A DNA stretch of 64,000 bases. Origin: Sphingomicrobium flavum. Lineage in GTDB: Bacteria > Pseudomonadota > Alphaproteobacteria > Sphingomonadales > Sphingomonadaceae. This document shows positions 4,232-11,372 of the stretch, piece by piece. The notes beneath the pieces were generated by a model that did not search any database, was not told where the DNA came from, and worked only from the letters and a program-made list of their open reading frames with translations. The stretch is from the NCBI RefSeq assembly GCF_024721605.1, contig NZ_CP102630.1, forward strand, positions 1,612,001 to 1,676,000, written 5' to 3'. Each line of letters opens with the position of its first letter. Position 1 is the first letter of the stretch. The translations under genes were made by a program, and so were the position numbers.

Positions 4232-5257
4232 ATGAGCGCATCCCCCTTTACCATTTACGGCGAGACAATCGCCAGCGGAAAGCGCGGCGTGGTGAATATC
4301 CCCGTCAGCCGCGATGCCGCCGATCGCTGGGTCTATCTGCCGGTGCGGGTCATTCATGGTGCTTCACCGGGGCCCGTCCTGTTCGTCAGCGCGGCAGTGC
4401 ATGGCGACGAGATTATCGGCGTGGAAATCATCCGCCGGCTTCTGAAGAAGATCAGCCCGTCAAAGCTGGCCGGCACGCTGATCGCCGTTCCTGTCGTCAA
4501 TGCCTACGGCTTTGTCGCCCATAGCCGTTACCTGCCCGACCGCCGCGATCTCAATCGCAGCTTCCCCGGGCGCGAGGAAGGATCACTGGCGGGGCGGCTG
4601 GCCTTTCTCTTCCGCAGCGAGATTGTGGAGCGGGCGGATTTTGGCATCGACCTGCATTCGGCCGCCGTGCACCGCTACAATCTGCCGCAAATCCGTGTCA
4701 GCCGCGAAAGCGAGCGCGCGCTTGAACTGGCCCGCGCTTTCGCCCCGCCGATCATCATGGCGTCCAATCTGCGCGAGGGGTCGCTGCGCGCCATGGCGCT
4801 GGAGAAGGGCGTGGAGATGATGCTGTATGAAGCGGGCGAAGCATTGCGGTTCGACCCGCTGTCCATCCGCATGGGGCTGAACGGCATCCTGCGCGTCATG
4901 GCCGAAATGGGGATGATCGAACTGAAGCGGGGCCGCGACATCGCGCCGTCACTGGAAGCATCGCGCAGCATCTGGCTGCGTGCGCCGCGCGGCGGGATCA
5001 GCGATATTCGCCGCCCATCGGGCAAGATTGTCTTCAAGGGCGATCTGCTTGCCATGGTCCGCAACCCGCTGGGCAATGAGGAAATGCCCATACGGGCGCC
5101 GATGGACGGGCTGGTGATCGGGCATAGCCGCATGGGCGCGGTGCATCGCGGCGATGCGCTGCTCCACGTCGCGCAGCTGGGCGATGGCGAAGGCCTGGAT
5201 CCGGAAACGGAAGAGCGGTTGAACGGACCGATGCTGGATGAACATGAGGTCGTCTAG
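4232..5257 (+). CDS. Succinylglutamate desuccinylase/aspartoacylase family zinc hydrolase
   Basis: A metallocarboxypeptidase-like amide hydrolase (AstE/AspA superfamily, M14-like) that removes an acyl group from an N-acyl amino acid; the substrate cannot be told. Visible zinc ligands are H57 and E60 in AAVHGDE and H142 in GIDLHSA, with the substrate-binding segment RRDLNRSFPG near 104-113. The C-terminal third is a beta-rich domain with a biotinyl/lipoyl-like 'IRAPMDGLVIGHSRMGAVHRGDALL', common in this family. The ATG at 4232 (MSASPFTIYG) is chosen over one at 4184. It encodes 341 aa and diverges from rpsM. Confidence 0.9.
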   Translation: MSASPFTIYGETIASGKRGVVNIPVSRDAADRWVYLPVRVIHGASPGPVLFVSAAVHGDEIIGVEIIRRLLKKISPSKLAGTLIAVPVVNAYGFVAHSRYLPDRRDLNRSFPGREEGSLAGRLAFLFRSEIVERADFGIDLHSAAVHRYNLPQIRVSRESERALELARAFAPPIIMASNLREGSLRAMALEKGVEMMLYEAGEALRFDPLSIRMGLNGILRVMAEMGMIELKRGRDIAPSLEASRSIWLRAPRGGISDIRRPSGKIVFKGDLLAMVRNPLGNEEMPIRAPMDGLVIGHSRMGAVHRGDALLHVAQLGDGEGLDPETEERLNGPMLDEHEVV

Positions 5258-5295
5258 AGGTTGCACCGCCCACGGCAGGCGTTAAGGCATTGGCG

Positions 5296-6234
5296 ATGCA
5301 GCGGCTCAGCCACACCGACCCTATCCCCGATGACCTTCGAGGCGCGATTTTTGCGCTGGGGAATTTCGACGGGTTTCACCTTGGCCACCAGGCGGTGGTG
5401 GGGCGTGCGGTGGCGCGGGCGGCGCATGAGGGCAGGAAGGCGATTGTCGCGACCTTCGATCCGCATCCGGTGCGGCACTTCCGGCCCGATGCCAAGCCCT
5501 TTCGCCTGACCGACCTGGACCAGCGCGAGGCGCTGTTCGCGGCGGCGGGGGCGGATGCGATGATGGTGTTCCGTTTTGGCGAGGAACTGGCCGGCACCAG
5601 CGCCGAGGATTTCGTGCGCCAGCTGCTGGGCGAGCAGCTGGGCGCAGCGGGCGTGGTGACGGGCGAAGATTTCACCTTCGGCAAAGCGCGCGGCGGCAAT
5701 GCTGCGGTGCTGCGCGAATTGGGCGCCGAGGCGGGCATTGGCGCCGAGACCGTGTCCGCGATCGAATTTAGCGAGGGCGTGGTGTCATCGAGCCGCATCC
5801 GCGAGGCGCTGCAATCGGGCGACCCGCATACCGCAACGAGACTGATGACGCGGCCCTTCGCGGTGCGCGGCGAAGTGGTGCATGGCGACAAGCGCGGGCG
5901 CGAGCTGGGCTGGCCCACGGCCAATATGGAAATGGGCCATTATGTGCGCCCGGCCTATGGCATCTATGTGGTGCGCGTGACGCTGCCCGACGGAAGCGAG
6001 CATGACGGGGTTGCCAATCTGGGCGTCAGGCCGATGTTCGACCCGCCCAAGGAATTGCTGGAAACCTATCTGTTCGATTTTGACGGCGACCTTTACGGCC
6101 AGCGCATCGAGGTCGCCCTGCTCCATTATATCCGCCCCGAGGCCGCCTTCCATGACCTGGACGCCTTGAAGCGCCAGATCGCCGAAGATGAAGCCGAAGC
6201 GCGACGGTTGTTGGCGGCGGGCACGACAAAATAG
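5296..6234 (+). CDS. ribF: Bifunctional riboflavin kinase / FAD synthetase
   Basis: Makes FMN from riboflavin and ATP, then FAD from FMN and ATP, in the cytoplasm. The N-terminal nucleotidyltransferase domain has the GNFDGFHLGH motif (HxGH at 28-31) and SSSRIREAL. The C-terminal flavokinase domain has the GRELGWPTANM loop. The ATG at 5296 gives 312 aa, the usual size; a TTG two codons upstream is less likely. It lies 38 nt after the hydrolase gene. Three palindromic repeats and a GIY-YIG gene separate it from ileS. The ribF-ileS-lspA order is common in proteobacteria and supports both calls. Confidence 0.96.
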   Translation: MQRLSHTDPIPDDLRGAIFALGNFDGFHLGHQAVVGRAVARAAHEGRKAIVATFDPHPVRHFRPDAKPFRLTDLDQREALFAAAGADAMMVFRFGEELAGTSAEDFVRQLLGEQLGAAGVVTGEDFTFGKARGGNAAVLRELGAEAGIGAETVSAIEFSEGVVSSSRIREALQSGDPHTATRLMTRPFAVRGEVVHGDKRGRELGWPTANMEMGHYVRPAYGIYVVRVTLPDGSEHDGVANLGVRPMFDPPKELLETYLFDFDGDLYGQRIEVALLHYIRPEAAFHDLDALKRQIAEDEAEARRLLAAGTTK

Positions 6235-6235
6235 C

Positions 6236-6266
6236 CGTCGCCCCTGCGACGGCAGGGGCCTATGCC
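6236..6266 (+). repeat. Palindromic REP-like repeat, copy A
   Basis: cgtcgCCCCTGCgacgGCAGGGGcc lies 3 nt after the ribF stop. Orientation is cgtcg-palindrome. Its core CCCCTGC..GCAGGGG is shared by four other copies around ileS. It could also act as a weak ribF terminator. Confidence 0.8.
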
Positions 6267-6344
6267 AACCCGCTTGCTTAGTGTTGGAGTTTATACTTCA
6301 TCAGCTTCGATTTCTTGCTATTCAACCTCCTGCCGGATCGCTGA

Positions 6345-6377
6345 CATGGGCCCCGGCCTGCGCAGGGGCGACGGGGT
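6345..6377 (-). repeat. Palindromic REP-like repeat, copy B
   Basis: Inverted relative to copy A (catgggccccggCCTGCGCAGGggcgacgggg). It ends three bases before the presumed start of the GIY-YIG gene, so it overlaps that gene's leader. The core is degenerate, with cggcctgcgcagg in place of cctgccttcgcagg. Confidence 0.7.
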
Positions 6378-6380
6378 ATT

Positions 6381-6668
6381 TTGGGCGGCTGGATCTACAT
6401 CATGACGAATGGACCGTTCGGGACGCTTTATGTCGGGGTGACTTCGGACATTGCAGGGCGGGTTTGGCAGCATCGGAGCGGCACCGGTTCTGAGTTTTGC
6501 CGGGAGCATGGGCTGACGCGGCTTGTCTATGCTGAGTATCATGAGAATATCGAGGATGCCATTGCACGTGAAAAGGCGATGAAACGGTGGAAGCGCAATT
6601 GGAAGCTGCGGCAAATCATGGAGGCGAACCCGGATTGGGAGGATCTTTACGAGACATTGAACCACTAG
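6381..6668 (+). CDS. Small GIY-YIG nuclease family protein
   Basis: A single GIY-YIG domain of 95 aa (UPF0213/YhbQ-like size). The GIY-like beta strand is 'WIYIM' (4-8), the YIG-like one 'YVGVT' (17-21). R27 and H31 in 'GRVWQH' are the expected catalytic-helix residues, and a basic 'AREKAMKRWKRNWK' helix follows. Proteins of this size have no separate DNA-binding domain; their function in cells is poorly defined. A TTG at 6381 is the only start upstream of the motif in this frame near the repeat; the next ATG (6402) would remove the first strand. The gene sits between palindromic repeats B and C, which suggests it moved with or acts on them. Confidence 0.85.
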   Translation: MGGWIYIMTNGPFGTLYVGVTSDIAGRVWQHRSGTGSEFCREHGLTRLVYAEYHENIEDAIAREKAMKRWKRNWKLRQIMEANPDWEDLYETLNH

Positions 6669-6735
6669 CCTTCGCTCATAGGCAGACGGGAGCCTAAGCC
6701 ACGCCTTCTCGAGTGCATCTTCCGATGCTCGATGG

Positions 6736-6768
6736 CATGGGCCCCTGCCTTCGCAGGGGCGACGGGGA
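6736..6768 (-). repeat. Palindromic REP-like repeat, copy C
   Basis: catgggCCCCTGCcttcGCAGGGGcgacgggg, same orientation as copy B, 67 nt after the GIY-YIG stop and about 70 nt before ileS. The core palindrome is perfect: CCCCTGC / GCAGGGG around ctt. Confidence 0.82.
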
Positions 6769-6840
6769 TCGGGTGTGGCGTGGACGTTGTGGAATGACGG
6801 TTGTGTGATGCATCACACATAGTTAAGCGCCAAAGCCGAT

Positions 6841-9810
6841 ATGTCCGACAAACCCAATTATAAAGACACGGTCTTTTTGCCCAAGACCGACTTCCCGATG
6901 AAAGCCGGCCTGCCCCAGAAGGAGCCGGAAATCCTGGCGCGCTGGCAGGCAGAAGATATCTATGCGCAGCTGCGCGAAGCGCGGGCGGGGCGTGAGAAGT
7001 TCATCCTTCATGACGGGCCGCCTTATGCCAATGGCGACATCCATATCGGCCATGCGCTCAACAAGACGCTGAAGGATATGGTGGTTCGCTCGCAGTCGCT
7101 GCTGGGCAAGGACGTGCCTTATGTGCCGGGCTGGGATTGCCACGGGCTGCCGATCGAGTGGAAGATCGAGGAGCTGTACCGCAAGAAGAAGCAGGACAAG
7201 AATAGCGTTCCGGCCAGGGAATTCCGCGCCGAATGCCGCGATTACGCCGCCAAATGGGTCAGCGTGCAGACCGAGCAGTTCCAGCGGCTGGGCAATATTG
7301 GCGATTATAAGCGCCCTTATCTGACCATGCGGCCCGAGGCCGAGGCGCAGATCGTTGGCGAGCTGTTCAAATTCGCCGAGACGGGCCAGCTCTATCGTGG
7401 CGCCAAGCCGGTGATGTGGTCGCCGGTCGAGGAAACCGCGCTGGCCGATGCCGAGGTCGAATATGAGGATCTGACCGACAGCCCGCAGATCGATGTTGCG
7501 TTCGAGATTGTCGAGAGCCGCGTGGAAGGCCTTGCTGGCGCAAAAGCTGTGATCTGGACGACCACGCCTTGGACAATCCCAGTCAACCAAGCTTTGGCCT
7601 TTGGTCCGGACATTGAATACGGGCTGTTCGAGCTAGAAGAAGCAGATCATCCGTCGGCAGGCGAAGAGGTTGACGAAAGCGCTTGGGTCTCAAAGGGCCG
7701 GTATCTCGTCGCTTTCGAATTGGGCCGCCAGCTTCTGGGACGACTAGTACCAGACGCAGAGAAGACCTTGCGTCTCTCCACCGTTTGGAAATGCGACGGC
7801 GCCGACCTTGCCGGCACCGTCGCCCGCCACCCGATGCACCATCTCGGCGGCTTTTACGCCAAGCCCCGCCCCTTCCTGGCGGGCGACTTCGTCACCACCG
7901 ATAGCGGCACCGGCCTTGTCCATATGGCACCCGATCATGGCGAGGACGATTTCGACCTGTGCAAGGCCAATGGCATCGATCCTGTCTTCGCCGTCATGGG
8001 GGATGGGCGCTACCGCGATGACTGGCTGTGGCTGGGCGGGGATGATGAGCGGCGGCGCAGCGTCATCAACAAGCCGTTCAATGCGCCCGACGGGCCGATC
8101 TGCAGCGATCTTTGCGAAGCGGGTGCCTTGCTATCCGCCAGCGCGGACTATGCGCATAGCTATCCCCATAGCTGGCGATCCAAGGCCAAGGTCATCTATA
8201 GGTGTACGCCTCAGTGGTTCATCGCGATTGACGAGCCTTTGCGCCTGCGCGCCTCGACTTCGCTCGGCACGAACGGAGAAGGGGGAAGCGCCAACAGTTC
8301 GTTCGTCCCGAGCGAAGTCGAGGGGCGTTCGCTGCGCCAGACTGCCTTGTCCGAGATCGACCGCGTCCGCTTTGTCCCGCCGCGCGGGCGCCGGCGCATC
8401 CAGTCGATGGTGGAAAGCCGCCCCGACTGGCTGATCAGCCGCCAGCGCGCCTGGGGCGTGCCGATTGCCTTGTTCGTCCACCGTGAAAGCGGCGAATTGC
8501 TGGTCGATGGCGAGGTCAATGCCCGCATCGTCGCGGCCATGCATGACGAGGGCGTGGATGCCTGGTCGGAAGACCGCGCAGGCGAATTTCTGGGCGCAGG
8601 CCGCAATCCCGACGACTATGAAATGGTCACCGACATTCTGGACGTCTGGTTCGACAGCGGTTCGACCCATGCCTTCGTGCTGGAGAGCGGTGACTGGCCC
8701 GAACAGCGCTGGCCCGCCGATCTCTACCTTGAAGGCTCGGACCAGCATCGCGGCTGGTTCCAGTCATCGCTGCTGGAAAGCTGCGGGACGCGCGGGCGCG
8801 CGCCTTATGATGCGGTGCTGACCCATGGCTTCACCATGGATGCCAAGGGCAAGAAGATGTCCAAGAGCGTCGGCAATACGGTCGACCCCTTGAAGGTGAT
8901 GGAGACCAGCGGGGCGGACATCATCCGCCTGTGGGCGCTGAGCGTCGATTATACCGAGGATCATCGCATCGGCGATGAGATCCTCAAGGGCGTGGGCGAC
9001 CAGTATCGCAAATTGCGCAATACTTTCCGCTATCTGCTCGGCGCGCTGGACGGCTTTACGGATGCCGAAAAGGTCGAGCCTGCCGAGATGCCCGAGCTTG
9101 AGCGCTATATGCTCGACCGGCTGAAGCGGCTGGACGGCACGATCCGTAAGGCCATCGATGATTTCGATTTCAATAGCTACACGCGTGCGCTGGTCGATTT
9201 CGCCAATGAAGATTTGTCGGCCTTCTTCTTCGATATCCGCAAGGATTGCCTCTATTGCGACGATCCGGCGGGGCTGAAACGGCGCAGCTATCGCACGGTG
9301 CTGGATACCTTGTTCGGCGCCCTGGTGCGCTACGCCGCGCCGATCCTGGTGTTCACCAGCGAAGAGGTTTGGGGCACGCGCTATCCCGATGCGGGCAGTG
9401 TGCATCTGCTGGAGCTGGAGGATTTGCCGGAGGCGTGGCTGGATGATGAGCTGGCGAACAAATGGAAAGTGCTGCGAGGGATAAGAAAGCTCGTCACTGA
9501 GCACGTCGAGTTCCTCCGCAAGGAAAAACTCGTCGGATCGGGTCTACAAACACTTGTCGAGGTCTGTTCGCCGAACAATGCGACGCGTGAAATTCTTTCA
9601 TCCGTGGATTTCGCTGAAATTGCGATCGTCGGTAAAGTAGTGATTGGCGATACGTTAAAGGCTGGCATGGTTGCGCCTGATGAGATCAAAGACGTCGGGG
9701 TGGCCACAGGGCGAATTGATTATGCGAAATGCGGGCGCTGCTGGCGGCATCTTCCCGAGGTCGAGGAAGATGGCCACTTGTGCGAACGTTGCGCGGAGGT
9801 GCTGTCTTGA
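6841..9810 (+). CDS. ileS: Isoleucyl-tRNA synthetase, with an in-frame palindromic insertion
   Basis: Charges tRNA-Ile. The class I signatures are HIGH (68-71, in NGDIHIGHALNK) and KMSKS (672-676). The CP1 editing domain lies between them, the anticodon-binding domain follows, and the C-terminus carries a zinc finger (CGRCW ... CERC). At 989 aa it is long for the family. Part of the excess is an approximately 28-residue stretch at about 470-498 (reading STSLGTNGEGG...FVPSEVEGRS), encoded by a palindromic element at 8248-8327. Two segments have atypical composition: about 7560-7800 in the editing domain (57% GC in one line) and 9481-9660 near the C-terminus (45-52% GC, against 62% just before). 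All catalytic motifs are intact, so the enzyme should work. lspA follows after two further repeats. Confidence 0.97.
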   Translation: MSDKPNYKDTVFLPKTDFPMKAGLPQKEPEILARWQAEDIYAQLREARAGREKFILHDGPPYANGDIHIGHALNKTLKDMVVRSQSLLGKDVPYVPGWDCHGLPIEWKIEELYRKKKQDKNSVPAREFRAECRDYAAKWVSVQTEQFQRLGNIGDYKRPYLTMRPEAEAQIVGELFKFAETGQLYRGAKPVMWSPVEETALADAEVEYEDLTDSPQIDVAFEIVESRVEGLAGAKAVIWTTTPWTIPVNQALAFGPDIEYGLFELEEADHPSAGEEVDESAWVSKGRYLVAFELGRQLLGRLVPDAEKTLRLSTVWKCDGADLAGTVARHPMHHLGGFYAKPRPFLAGDFVTTDSGTGLVHMAPDHGEDDFDLCKANGIDPVFAVMGDGRYRDDWLWLGGDDERRRSVINKPFNAPDGPICSDLCEAGALLSASADYAHSYPHSWRSKAKVIYRCTPQWFIAIDEPLRLRASTSLGTNGEGGSANSSFVPSEVEGRSLRQTALSEIDRVRFVPPRGRRRIQSMVESRPDWLISRQRAWGVPIALFVHRESGELLVDGEVNARIVAAMHDEGVDAWSEDRAGEFLGAGRNPDDYEMVTDILDVWFDSGSTHAFVLESGDWPEQRWPADLYLEGSDQHRGWFQSSLLESCGTRGRAPYDAVLTHGFTMDAKGKKMSKSVGNTVDPLKVMETSGADIIRLWALSVDYTEDHRIGDEILKGVGDQYRKLRNTFRYLLGALDGFTDAEKVEPAEMPELERYMLDRLKRLDGTIRKAIDDFDFNSYTRALVDFANEDLSAFFFDIRKDCLYCDDPAGLKRRSYRTVLDTLFGALVRYAAPILVFTSEEVWGTRYPDAGSVHLLELEDLPEAWLDDELANKWKVLRGIRKLVTEHVEFLRKEKLVGSGLQTLVEVCSPNNATREILSSVDFAEIAIVGKVVIGDTLKAGMVAPDEIKDVGVATGRIDYAKCGRCWRHLPEVEEDGHLCERCAEVLS
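8248..8327 (+). repeat. Palindromic element inserted in frame within ileS
   Basis: cctcgacttcgctcggcac (from 8252) and its near reverse complement ending at 8323 form a 23-nt inverted repeat (8252-8274 with 8301-8323) with one mismatch, around a 26-nt loop. A few more pairs extend outward. The element adds about 28 codons without a stop, between the DEPLRLR and RQTALSEIDR segments of IleS, where E. coli IleS has a short linker. Elements with this tcgacttcgctcg core are commonly intergenic in sphingomonads. Confidence 0.85.
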
Positions 9811-9821
9811 CCACCCTAAAC

Positions 9822-9848
9822 CGTCGCCCCTGCGAAGGCAGGGGCCCA
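9822..9848 (+). repeat. Palindromic REP-like repeat, copy D
   Basis: ccgtcgCCCCTGCgaagGCAGGGGccca, same orientation as copy A, 11 nt after the ileS stop. With copy E it forms an inverted pair in the ileS-lspA gap. Confidence 0.82.
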
Positions 9849-9889
9849 TTTCATCTCATTTGCGGCAATGTTGACGGGTTTCTCGCTGG

Positions 9890-9920
9890 CATGGATCCCT
9901 GCCTTCGCAGGGATGACGAG
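9890..9920 (-). repeat. Palindromic REP-like repeat, copy E
   Basis: catggatCCCTGCcttcGCAGGGatgacgag, opposite in orientation to copy D. It ends 14 nt before the lspA start. The ggat/atga flanks mark a subtype different from copies A-D (gggc/cgac). Confidence 0.82.
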
Positions 9921-9934
9921 CTGGGGGTGGCTCA

Positions 9935-10423
9935 GTGAAGAAGCTCAACGCCTATATCTTCGCCATCGCCATCTTCATCGCCGACCAGGTGACGAAATAT
10001 GCGATGCTGAACATCGCGCGCATTCGCGAGGTGCGGCAGATCGAGATCATTGAGATCTTCAACTTCACCTATGTCGAAAATCGCGGCATCAGCCTTGGCC
10101 TGTTGCAGGCCGAGGATGATCTGGGTCGCTGGCTGCTGGTCGGCGCGACTGCCGCGATTGCCGCCATCGTCGGCTGGTGGATGACGCGCGAAACGCAAAA
10201 ATGGGACCAGCTGGGCCTCGCCATGATTTTGGGCGGCGCGCTGGGGAATATCGTAGATAGGGTTCGCTTCGGCTATGTTGTCGACTTTCTCGACTTGCAT
10301 TTCGGTGACTTCCGGCCCTTTTATGTCTTTAACATTGCCGATGCGGCCATTAGCATCGGTGTCGTGATCTTATTGATAAGGGCGTTCTTTTTCGCGCCCG
10401 CTGAGGAGAATGAACATGCGTAA
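9935..10423 (+). CDS. lspA: Lipoprotein signal peptidase (signal peptidase II)
   Basis: An inner-membrane aspartyl protease that cleaves the signal peptide of diacylglyceryl-modified prolipoproteins. It has four predicted membrane helices in 162 aa. The catalytic aspartates lie in 'GNIVDRVRFGYVVDF' and 'FNIADAAISIG', and an N-terminal 'IADQVTK' motif is present. The start is GTG at 9935. The downstream lipoprotein gene starts inside its 3' end, so the two are translationally linked, and that product is a likely substrate. Confidence 0.96.
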   Translation: MKKLNAYIFAIAIFIADQVTKYAMLNIARIREVRQIEIIEIFNFTYVENRGISLGLLQAEDDLGRWLLVGATAAIAAIVGWWMTRETQKWDQLGLAMILGGALGNIVDRVRFGYVVDFLDLHFGDFRPFYVFNIADAAISIGVVILLIRAFFFAPAEENEHA

Positions 10424-10808
10424 GGCCCTATTCCTGCTGGCCGCACCGCTTGCCCTGAGTGCCTGTGGGGGCAGCGGGTCGCTCGATGAATTCGCGGTAA
10501 CGCGCAATGCGCCGCTGGTCATTCCGCCCGATTATACGCTGGAGCCGCCCGCGGCCGGCACCGTGTCATCGACCGCCGAAGCCAGCCAGAGCCAGGCGAT
10601 CGAAGCGCTGTTCGGCGGCCCGGCCCCGCGCAGCCCGGTCGAACGCGCCGTGATCGATGCCGCCGACGCCGGTAGCGGCACCATCGGCACTCGCTCCACC
10701 GCAGGCGATCCGCAGACCCGCGTTGTCGACAAGGGTGCGGAAACGACCGACATCATTGCCGCGCCGGAATCGGTCGGGCAGGATGCCAGCGCCGATACGC
10801 CGCAATAG
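10416..10808 (+). CDS. DUF3035-type lipoprotein
   Basis: A 130-aa predicted lipoprotein. The signal peptide ends in the lipobox LALSAC (lipidated Cys at about residue 17). The mature part has 'DEFAVTRNAPLVIPPDYTLEPP', the recognisable DUF3035 core, then a low-complexity Ala/Ser/Asp tail. The function of the family is unknown. GAGGAG at 10403-10408 lies 7 nt before the ATG at 10416 and only 1 nt before an alternative ATG at 10410, so 10416 is chosen. It overlaps lspA by 8 nt. Confidence 0.88.
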   Translation: MRKALFLLAAPLALSACGGSGSLDEFAVTRNAPLVIPPDYTLEPPAAGTVSSTAEASQSQAIEALFGGPAPRSPVERAVIDAADAGSGTIGTRSTAGDPQTRVVDKGAETTDIIAAPESVGQDASADTPQ

Positions 10809-10832
10809 GACGTAGCCGAACGGGGGACAGAC

Positions 10833-11372
10833 ATGGCGGGTAACAAGATTTCATCGCGGCTGGTCGATCTGGAGAGCCAGCTCGAACGCGCCAAGCGCCG
10901 TCTTGAAGACGGCCTGTCCCTCGTCGCCGATGCCCAGAAGGCGCTGGCCGACGTGCAATCGGCGATCATCGGGTCGCCCGCCGCGGCGGTGGACACCGAT
11001 AGCGATGAAGCCGCCTCCAAGCTGCTCGATAGCCTGAAGGCGCAGGGGCAGGACATGCCCGAGACGCTGTGCGACGGGCGCATGGCGGTCGATCCGGTGC
11101 AGCGCCTGATCCGTATCGATGGCAATCCCATCGGCATCACCGAGATGGAATATCGCGTGCTGGAGCTCTTGGCCTATGCCCGCAACAATGTCGTCACGCG
11201 CAACATGCTCTTGAAGCATCTCTATCGCCGCGCCGACGATCAGCCGCAGCCCAAGATCATCGATGTCTTCATTTCAAAGCTGCGGAAGAAGCTGCGCTCG
11301 GCCAGCGGCGGGGCGGAATTCATCGAGACGATCCCCCAGCGCGGCTGGATCCTGCGCGATAATCAGGGCTGA
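10833..11372 (+). CDS. Winged-helix DNA-binding protein of OmpR/CtrA type without receiver domain
   Basis: 179 aa. Residues 1-60 form a probable coiled coil (SRLVDLESQLERAKRRLEDG...), where a response regulator would carry its receiver domain. Residues 80-178 form a Trans_reg_C winged helix: 'GITEMEYRVLELLAYARNNVVTRNMLLKHLY', then 'KIIDVFISKLRKKLRSA' (recognition helix) and 'FIETIPQRGWILRD' (wing). This domain resembles that of CtrA, the alphaproteobacterial cell-cycle regulator, but there is no phospho-acceptor aspartate. It probably binds DNA constitutively or through a partner. It lies 24 nt after the lipoprotein gene. Its target sites are unknown. Confidence 0.82.
   Translation: MAGNKISSRLVDLESQLERAKRRLEDGLSLVADAQKALADVQSAIIGSPAAAVDTDSDEAASKLLDSLKAQGQDMPETLCDGRMAVDPVQRLIRIDGNPIGITEMEYRVLELLAYARNNVVTRNMLLKHLYRRADDQPQPKIIDVFISKLRKKLRSASGGAEFIETIPQRGWILRDNQG

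Follow-up and report, generated by a model that had tools for sequence, protein, structure and literature searches.

The isoleucyl-tRNA synthetase (IleRS) gene ileS of Sphingomicrobium flavum carries an in-frame palindromic insert, which consists of an inverted pair of a 28-nt genomic repeat, here named type A. The gene lies in a 64,000-nt stretch of the genome (contig NZ_CP102630.1, positions 1,612,001 to 1,676,000), hereafter termed the window, whose own numbering is used for its features. On balance, we consider it probable that the type A pair replaced a native loop of IleRS and is translated as a disordered loop, that the same loop has been captured recurrently by palindromic repeats, and that small orphan GIY-YIG endonucleases of one clade (clade I) are candidate spreaders of the repeat.

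The ileS frame runs uninterrupted from 6841 to 9810 on the plus strand and encodes 989 residues. It is the only full-length match among those listed for the genome, which has six IleRS matches, two others listed being 26-30% identical. A preliminary description of this DNA had reported a palindrome inside ileS, and we found it at exactly 8248-8327 (plus strand), where it is read as RASTSLGTNGEGGSANSSFVPSEVEGR. The arms extend to 28 nt with 26 of 28 positions paired (93%): the left arm (8248-8275) is a minus-strand copy of type A and the right arm (8300-8327) a plus-strand copy, separated by a 24-nt spacer (8276-8299) that varies between species with the same arms. The inverted repeat has a score of 22, compared to a maximum of 17 and a mean of 10.2 in 200 synonymous-codon shuffles of the gene. 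Folding of the insert strand as DNA gave a z of -7.9, and folding of a slightly longer stretch as RNA gave a z of -4.9, neither of which was equalled by any of 200 shuffles. Four inverted repeats in the window reach a score of at least 14, which is termed strong hereafter, against none in a block-shuffled copy. A search of Rfam with positions 5000-11000 gave no match up to an E of 0.1, on which a known RNA element was rejected as the identity of the insert.

The type A arm is found at eight places in the 2.34-Mb genome with up to three mismatches, compared to none for a reversed-pattern control, in agreement with the earlier proposal that the insert derives from a genomic repeat with other copies. 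Besides ileS, these copies sit in a CarA-family open reading frame (ORF; above the family cut-off), in two further ORFs at 1120985-1121863 and 1608312-1609127 (minus strand) of the genome, at the end of a GIY-YIG ORF and in intergenic gaps. The arm has 8 to 190 copies in 11 of 14 genomes, which were picked mostly for having inserts, and none in the genomes of the three closest relatives tested (G034, G018 and G001). In addition to 13 inverted type A pairs in the loops of ileS and carA, 20 pairs were read outside these loops from the matches listed (13 in G109, four in G078, two in G028 and one in G009).

Comparison within the genus was made on the stretch between the anchors TPQWF and RPDW of IleRS, which we define as the ileS loop. 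All 61 genomes of the genus sample have an IleRS match; 58 loci were taken, from which 54 loops were readable and four were not. The inter-anchor length is 66 residues in the window, compared to 67-68 residues in three relatives, the sister species L018 and L047 together with L019 as the next closest; all three keep the native loop and have no type A arm in their genomes (G034, G001 and G018). Because the native loop of these relatives is of about the same length, the palindrome appears to have replaced a segment of ileS. Thus, of the earlier statement that the insert adds about 28 codons with the frame kept, the in-frame part stands, whereas the pure addition does not. In the related IleS proteins read, the insert residues come together with the palindrome, and a decayed peptide goes with a decayed palindrome (L093 and L276, see below), consistent with an insertion as first described.

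Strong inverted repeats are present in 11 of the 54 genus loops with scores of 14-24, and the remaining 43 loops score at most 11. By eye, the 11 inserts belong to at least three repeat kinds. Type A is present in the window (L017), L027 and L036, with spacers that differ among all three; L031 has a repeat related to type A (CTGAGCCTGTCGAAG); and the other seven have GC-rich hairpin repeats of the CCCTCCCGC, TCTCCCC or CCCCTCCCC type. The native loop is retained alongside the insert in L056 and L057 and partly in L055, and is gone in the other inserts. For seven genomes with non-type-A inserts, the identity of the insert as a genomic repeat is clear for about four: one-strand copies of the CCTCCCGCNNGCGGGAGG pattern and of its reversed control number 61 and 2 in G019, 26 and 2 in G036, 25 and 0 in G039, 14 and 4 in G042, and 7 and 4 in G008, in addition to 3 and 3 in G021 and 3 and 0 in G016, where the inserts are of another sequence. 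On a tree computed without the loop (62 rows), the insert label needs 10 changes, at least nine of them forced by starred branches, and it is not more clustered than shuffled labels (mean 10.4).

Beyond the genus, the best named IleS matches belong to Altererythrobacter, Qipengyuania, Aurantiacibacter and others at about 65% (best 80 of 592 named loci, 72 of them readable). Six of these 72 loops score at least 14 (L094, L097, L098, L100, L110 and L112), including those of Sphingomonas changbaiensis (L098), Sphingobium fontiphilum (L100) and a Qipengyuania (L112). In Sphingobium boeckii (L093), a type A copy in the loop has decayed to a score of 9 but can still be recognised from its peptide, and L276 has a decayed copy with a palindrome score of 11. 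From L120 on, where the titles are mostly non-Sphingomonadales, the readable loops have 36-47 residues and no strong repeat, Devosia aside. The 62-residue IleRS loop of Devosia oryzisoli (L153, 301-3231), outside the Sphingomonadales, looks repeat-derived by eye (SPSSGPAGHLLPEGEK). A sample of one genome per genus over 80 genera yielded 79 loci and 75 loops (four unreadable), nine of them with strong repeats, and the 27 best-matching family loci yielded 26 loops, four of them strong, one of the four being from a genome already in the previous sets.

The pool of distinct loops leaves out the set of 27 family loci and comprises 198 loops, of which 127 have at least 50 residues. Among these long loops 26 score at least 14, and in 25 of the 26 the observed score was reached by none of 60 synonymous resamplings. 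The 101 long loops below 14 have a mean of 7.98, close to the synonymous null of 7.52, which leaves the idea that native loops are fossil palindromes unsupported; the scores of nine of them were reached by at most three of 60 resamplings, and L086, L092 and L108 among the nine are recognisable decayed repeats. As background, twenty 20-kb stretches (400 kb, four genomes) contain 10 strong inverted repeats, four of which lie inside crude ORFs, two of these resembling genomic repeats by peptide. At this rate, derived from four genomes and with relatedness ignored, 0.12 strong repeats would be expected in the 54 genus loops, compared to the 11 observed. A second site of in-frame palindromes lies around residue 877 of ileS, where three of 39 readable genus loci have strong CGTC-like repeats (L036 1781-1834, L065 2694-2792 and L074 1173-1273) and a fourth appeared in a scan (L051 392-461); no strong repeat was found in the 14 named and eight family loci readable there. 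Altogether, the comparison shows the ileS loop to be a recurrent landing site, which different palindromic repeats have entered independently many times.

The linker of CarA behaves like the ileS loop as an insert site. The carA gene is expanded in 11 of 53 genus genes (match length at least 1155 nt, usually about 1115 nt), and that of this genome has an in-frame type A pair. In 24 readable linkers, usually of 11-12 residues, the inserts precede what we take to be the glutaminase domain. Strong repeats are present in seven of 39 carA loci and one of 41 valS loci, numbers that are not random samples because nine further carA loci and 11 further valS loci were included mostly for looking long or broken; the best-scoring 30 alone give one for carA and none for valS. 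The single genome G019 has an in-frame palindromic insert in valS (L355) and another in ileS.

The reading of the repeat as protein is strongly biased. The type A arm has six open frames (PSTSLGTNG, PRLRSGRTG, LDFARDER, PRSSRAKSR, PVRPERSRG and PFVPSEVE), yet all 13 two-armed loops of ileS and carA have the left arm in the frame of STSLGTN or a close variant, and all but one, the carA of this genome, have the right arm in that of FVPSEV or a variant (12 of 13). Against a null of equal frames, this agreement has a p of ~2e-6 for the left arm and 5e-5 for the right arm, and merging of the similar L350 and L351 gives 12 of 12 (6e-6); the count omits two weak matches, L201, which shows no repeat by eye, and L347, a longer variant in which no right arm was found. 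Four of the six possible readings are arginine-rich or of mixed charge, and these are the ones mostly unused, whereas other frames do occur in type A-bearing ORFs elsewhere in the genomes. Since all six frames are open and STSLGTN is nevertheless read in every case, the insert has probably been translated and filtered by selection. The frame bias in the two loops is best explained by selection on a translated peptide, and we consider the ileS insert very probably translated.

In the predicted structure of the protein (mean predicted local distance difference test (pLDDT) score 80.9, predicted template modelling (TM) score 0.76), residues 471-492 have a pLDDT below 50 and lie between a strand (458-461) and a helix (498-508). 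Structural similarity search against the PDB gave IleRS structures as best matches, with TM scores of ~0.65-0.73 for the first seven and a root mean square deviation of 9-10, which leaves the domain orientation of the model uncertain. The loop is nearly absent from the solved IleRS 1ffy, which we take to be that of Staphylococcus aureus: residue 464 of the window protein aligns to 417 and residue 498 to 419, leaving one residue against 33. A surface loop, as suggested in the preliminary description, is probable.

We propose that an inverted pair of type A entered ileS in frame and replaced a native loop of variable length, and that some 27 residues would be translated from it as a disordered loop. 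Located between the post-TPQWF strand and the next helix, this loop would tolerate many hydrophilic peptides, and insertions would persist when the frame is kept and a soluble frame is read. As in-frame, soluble-frame insertions would survive in such a tolerant loop, different palindromic repeats have landed there independently many times, with protein-level selection filtering the reading frames, as the strong statistical bias suggests. Much of this is shared by the simpler account of neutral insertion, in which repeats enter at random, without targeting or function, and the few places that take an in-frame insert without lethal effect include the ileS loop and the carA linker. We regard this account as somewhat better than an even choice, and little argues against it, as it equals the first half of our proposal. 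The inserts vary in kind, exact place and length, some stand beside the intact native loop (L056 and L057), and decayed copies exist (L093 and L276); moreover, the 2013 survey of Di Nocera et al. (PMC3733652), in the portion available, considers such inserts possibly neutral in linkers and loops but also raises, as a speculation, that repair proteins may be affected. What neutral insertion leaves unexplained is the uniform arm order of type A in the two loops.

As for the agent that spreads the repeat, orphan GIY-YIG genes are associated with matched repeats on their two sides. The loci were the best 30 of each PF01541 search, with two 350-nt flanks compared, and the genus orphans sampled were 15 of 19 PF01541 matches with an open frame below 300 aa, a further one, of 243 aa, being assigned to uvrC by its match. 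Matched flank repeats with a score of at least 14 were found at 14 of 15 genus orphan loci and 22 of 29 loci of other genera, in total 36 of 44 with the window's own locus excluded; the miss in the genus is L395, at a contig edge where the assumed position of the gene does not hold, and this locus is absent from the two analyses that follow. By contrast, the controls gave one of 11 for uvrC (from 15 loci, 11 with enough flank for comparison), one of 30 for valS, none of 30 for carA, two of 29 for ileS and two of 93 for small genes in random stretches. When the repeats were defined explicitly, both sides carried them at 13 of 14 orphan GIY-YIG genes, compared to none of 15 for uvrC, one of 30 for valS, none of 30 for carA and none of 29 for ileS; for at least one side the numbers are 13 of 14, none of 15, seven of 30, three of 30 and two of 29, respectively. 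These definitions are lax: they yield 46 units over the 400 kb sampled at random and, within the window, another 14, and some units are clearly intragenic.

A tree of the GIY-YIG domains (44 rows, including the window's gene) has two clades that differ in their repeats. Clade I (21 rows) comprises 11 rows with type A, five with A2 and five unclassified, whereas clade II (23 rows) comprises 16 CGTC-1-like rows, four with TGAACTTGTTTCAG and three unclassified. The main labels never cross the clades: all 16 A or A2 rows are in clade I and all 20 CGTC-tagged rows in clade II, although for seven of the 16 CGTC-1-like rows the label comes from one flank only, and L430 bears both CGTC kinds. The repeat label needs 11 changes on the tree, against a mean of 24.3 for shuffled labels, none of 200 being as low; A2 alone is unclustered inside clade I. 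All 44 domains fit a simple Y...Y-x-G...R...H pattern.

Type A copies and a clade I gene occur together in G000, G007, G009, G015, G020 and G078, and neither occurs in G001 and G018. This genome has one type A-flanked clade I gene, near carA; such genes near an insert-bearing carA are found at L076 1515-1898 (G000:826814-827197) and in L345. By coordinates in 21 genomes, a GIY-YIG gene near carA goes with a carA insert (four of seven against none of 14, p 0.006; G012, with the two genes on different contigs, counted as non-adjacent), and the four carA-adjacent genes, being similarly placed, may represent one old shared event. In named records of a plasmid collection, of which 18 of 64 listed hits of clade I and clade II queries were examined, the 12 clade II hits have matched repeats in nine of 10 Alphaproteobacteria and not in Photobacterium or Spirosoma; one of those with matched repeats sits between sufB and sufC of Azospirillum lipoferum, and three of the nine share a long common stretch that may be a larger duplication. 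Matched repeats flank two of the four clade I hits. In some Sphingobium plasmid records, GIY-YIG hits (H5, H6 and H8) bear the annotation “excinuclease ABC subunit C”, which is probably a wrong name for the orphan gene. Among the best-matching literature listed, we found no report that links GIY-YIG with repetitive extragenic palindromes (REPs), REP-associated tyrosine transposases (RAYTs) or palindromes.

We therefore favour type A as a putative non-autonomous element, whose best candidate spreader would be the small orphan GIY-YIG endonuclease of the clade with type A-flanked genes; while the association is observed, we infer the mobilisation. A RAYT was rejected as the mover, as a profile search of this genome with PF01797 (Y1_Tnp) gave no match, compared to positive control searches in five of 14 known genomes. 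Extended to type A and the CGTC-tagged palindromes of Alphaproteobacteria in general, each family being spread by its own clade of orphan GIY-YIG endonucleases, the proposal is more tentative, and we place it slightly on the doubtful side.

Several observations weigh against the proposal. The GIY-YIG gene beside ileS in the window (6381-6668, plus strand; 95 aa with a TTG start read from the sequence; PF01541 E 1.9e-12) belongs to clade II, whereas type A goes with clade I, and no GIY-YIG gene lies beside ileS in five other insert species (G007, G008, G009, G019 and G021, among 21 genomes); for both reasons the neighbouring gene was rejected, as a rule, as the cause of the ileS insert. The clade I row L387 has one CGTC unit in its flank besides A2 repeats, and eight of the 44 rows have no classified repeat. 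The tree itself is built on 74 columns and has one starred fork besides the two-clade split, and only 26 of the 44 domains match a crude pattern of the catalytic C-terminal Glu. In G109, a genome with 32 copies of type A, PF01541 has two matches: one has the length of UvrC, and the other looks clade II by eye, with a CGTC repeat in its flank. Finally, the arms of type A are ordered (-,+) in the 13 loops of ileS and carA and (+,-) in 19 of the 20 other pairs (L365-L384), a reversal that nothing here explains.

Some of these points would fit a different relation between nuclease and repeat, in which the GIY-YIG genes are of homing type and insert into an existing repeat pair, the ileS repeats having come by another mechanism. 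Such homing explains the flanking and the clade specificity equally well, and it is in line with the type A copies of G109, where neither of the two PF01541 matches is clade I; homing endonucleases, according to the part of PMC1564403 available, cut uninterrupted targets and not their own mobile DNA. However, it names no agent by which the repeats would spread: the genome has no Y1_Tnp match, and CGTC elements “seem lacking a dedicated transposase” in the 2013 survey (PMC3733652), as far as its available text goes. We hold homing to be rather unlikely.

A function of the insert, either as an mRNA hairpin that slows or regulates IleRS synthesis or as a peptide that alters the binding of tRNA or a partner, would agree with the RNA fold and the conserved frame choice. 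It is very improbable, as the sister species manage without the insert, the peptides of different repeat kinds share no sequence by eye, and the palindrome is weak in the decayed copies L093 and L276. Removal or skipping of the insert before or during translation, as reported for such palindromes in the mitochondria of a yeast (PMC6649704, in the part available), is scarcely credible, since the inserts keep the frame, have no stop and show type A in a preferred frame, all of which points to translation.

The neighbourhood of ileS contains further repeats of the CGTC-tagged kind. The clade II gene lies ~170 nt upstream of ileS in the ribF-ileS gap, which is 609 nt long, compared to 16 and 20 nt in L018 and L019, though five of 25 measured gaps are longer than 1 kb. 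The preliminary description mentions neither this gene with its repeats nor the repeated entry of different repeats into the ileS loop. Two units lie to the left of the gene (6236-6259, plus strand; 6350-6373, minus strand) and one to its right (6741-6764, minus strand), the common repeat of the two flanks scoring 27. Downstream, the ileS-lspA gap has a unit at 9822-9845 (plus strand) and its inverted partner at 9895-9918 (minus strand), and the overlapping stretches 9826-9852 and 9893-9919 each fold alone, with z of -4.2 and -4.9.

If the proposal is true, GIY-YIG endonucleases would form a second class of palindrome mobiliser, unrelated to the RAYT transposases, and through the palindromes they spread, IleRS, CarA and other essential proteins would acquire new in-frame loops again and again. 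What moves the CGTC repeats was left open in 2013 (PMC3733652), and the matched repeats at orphan GIY-YIG genes point to a concrete candidate. With different repeats captured time and again by a single loop, an essential enzyme also provides natural replicates of how selfish DNA turns into protein sequence. Comparison with miniature inverted-repeat transposable elements is limited: inverted arms are present, and the sister species give no clean empty site because the native loop was replaced.

Among known systems, the Rickettsia palindromic elements (RPE) are found in a different host and presumably differ in sequence from the repeat of the ileS insert. They resemble it as in-frame, translated palindromes in conserved genes (PMC2229807), with enzyme activity retained in one tested case, and no case of a single loop taken by different repeats was found for RPE in the available portion of that paper. 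The GIY-YIG loci resemble the RAYT/REP systems (REPtron, REPIN) in having a small nuclease gene between two inverted copies of a palindrome with further copies in the genome (PMC2817692, as far as available). They differ in that the gene encodes a GIY-YIG nuclease instead of a Y1 (HuH) transposase, for which the genome has no Y1_Tnp match, and in that the repeats are inverted at some loci and direct at others. Clade I proteins also match YhbQ/YazA-type GIY-YIG proteins, namely E. coli yhbQ and B. subtilis yazA, at 36-41% identity, whereas these two control loci lack matched flank repeats (score 8 each).

Another likeness is to the CGTC-tagged REPs, which, similar to type A, are short palindromes in multiple copies and inverted pairs, also inside genes. 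Rickettsia and Neisseria are among the groups with CGTC repeats. According to the available part of the 2013 survey (PMC3733652), they are common in Alphaproteobacteria, often as inverted dimers, and each unit is defined by a hairpin stem of 8-9 bp, a loop of 4-5 nt and an unpaired CGTC tag at one end. Type A contains the tetranucleotide CGTC 4 nt inside the end of its arm. However, a single arm does not fold by itself, its two strands giving z of +0.5 and +1.5, and type A thus lacks the 8-9 bp hairpin, a defining feature of CGTC REPs. The term GIY-YIG does not occur in PMC3733652. The same survey describes CGTC and GTAG repeats as intragenic in many species, the intragenic CGTC repeats coding for 20-30 residues, and lists tRNA synthetase genes of X. 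oryzae, E. “lithoralis” and S. alaskensis among the carriers; the statement in the preliminary description that such insertions are undescribed in sphingomonads therefore does not hold. Literature searches on the repeat letters and insert peptides, and on intragenic REP with tRNA synthetase, found no match. Among the genes compared in the available part of PMC3733652, a near-identical insertion site is given only for recB of two Xanthomonas. In-frame repeat inserts in synthetase genes are thus already published, and the repeated capture of one loop, together with the matched repeats at orphan GIY-YIG genes, goes further.

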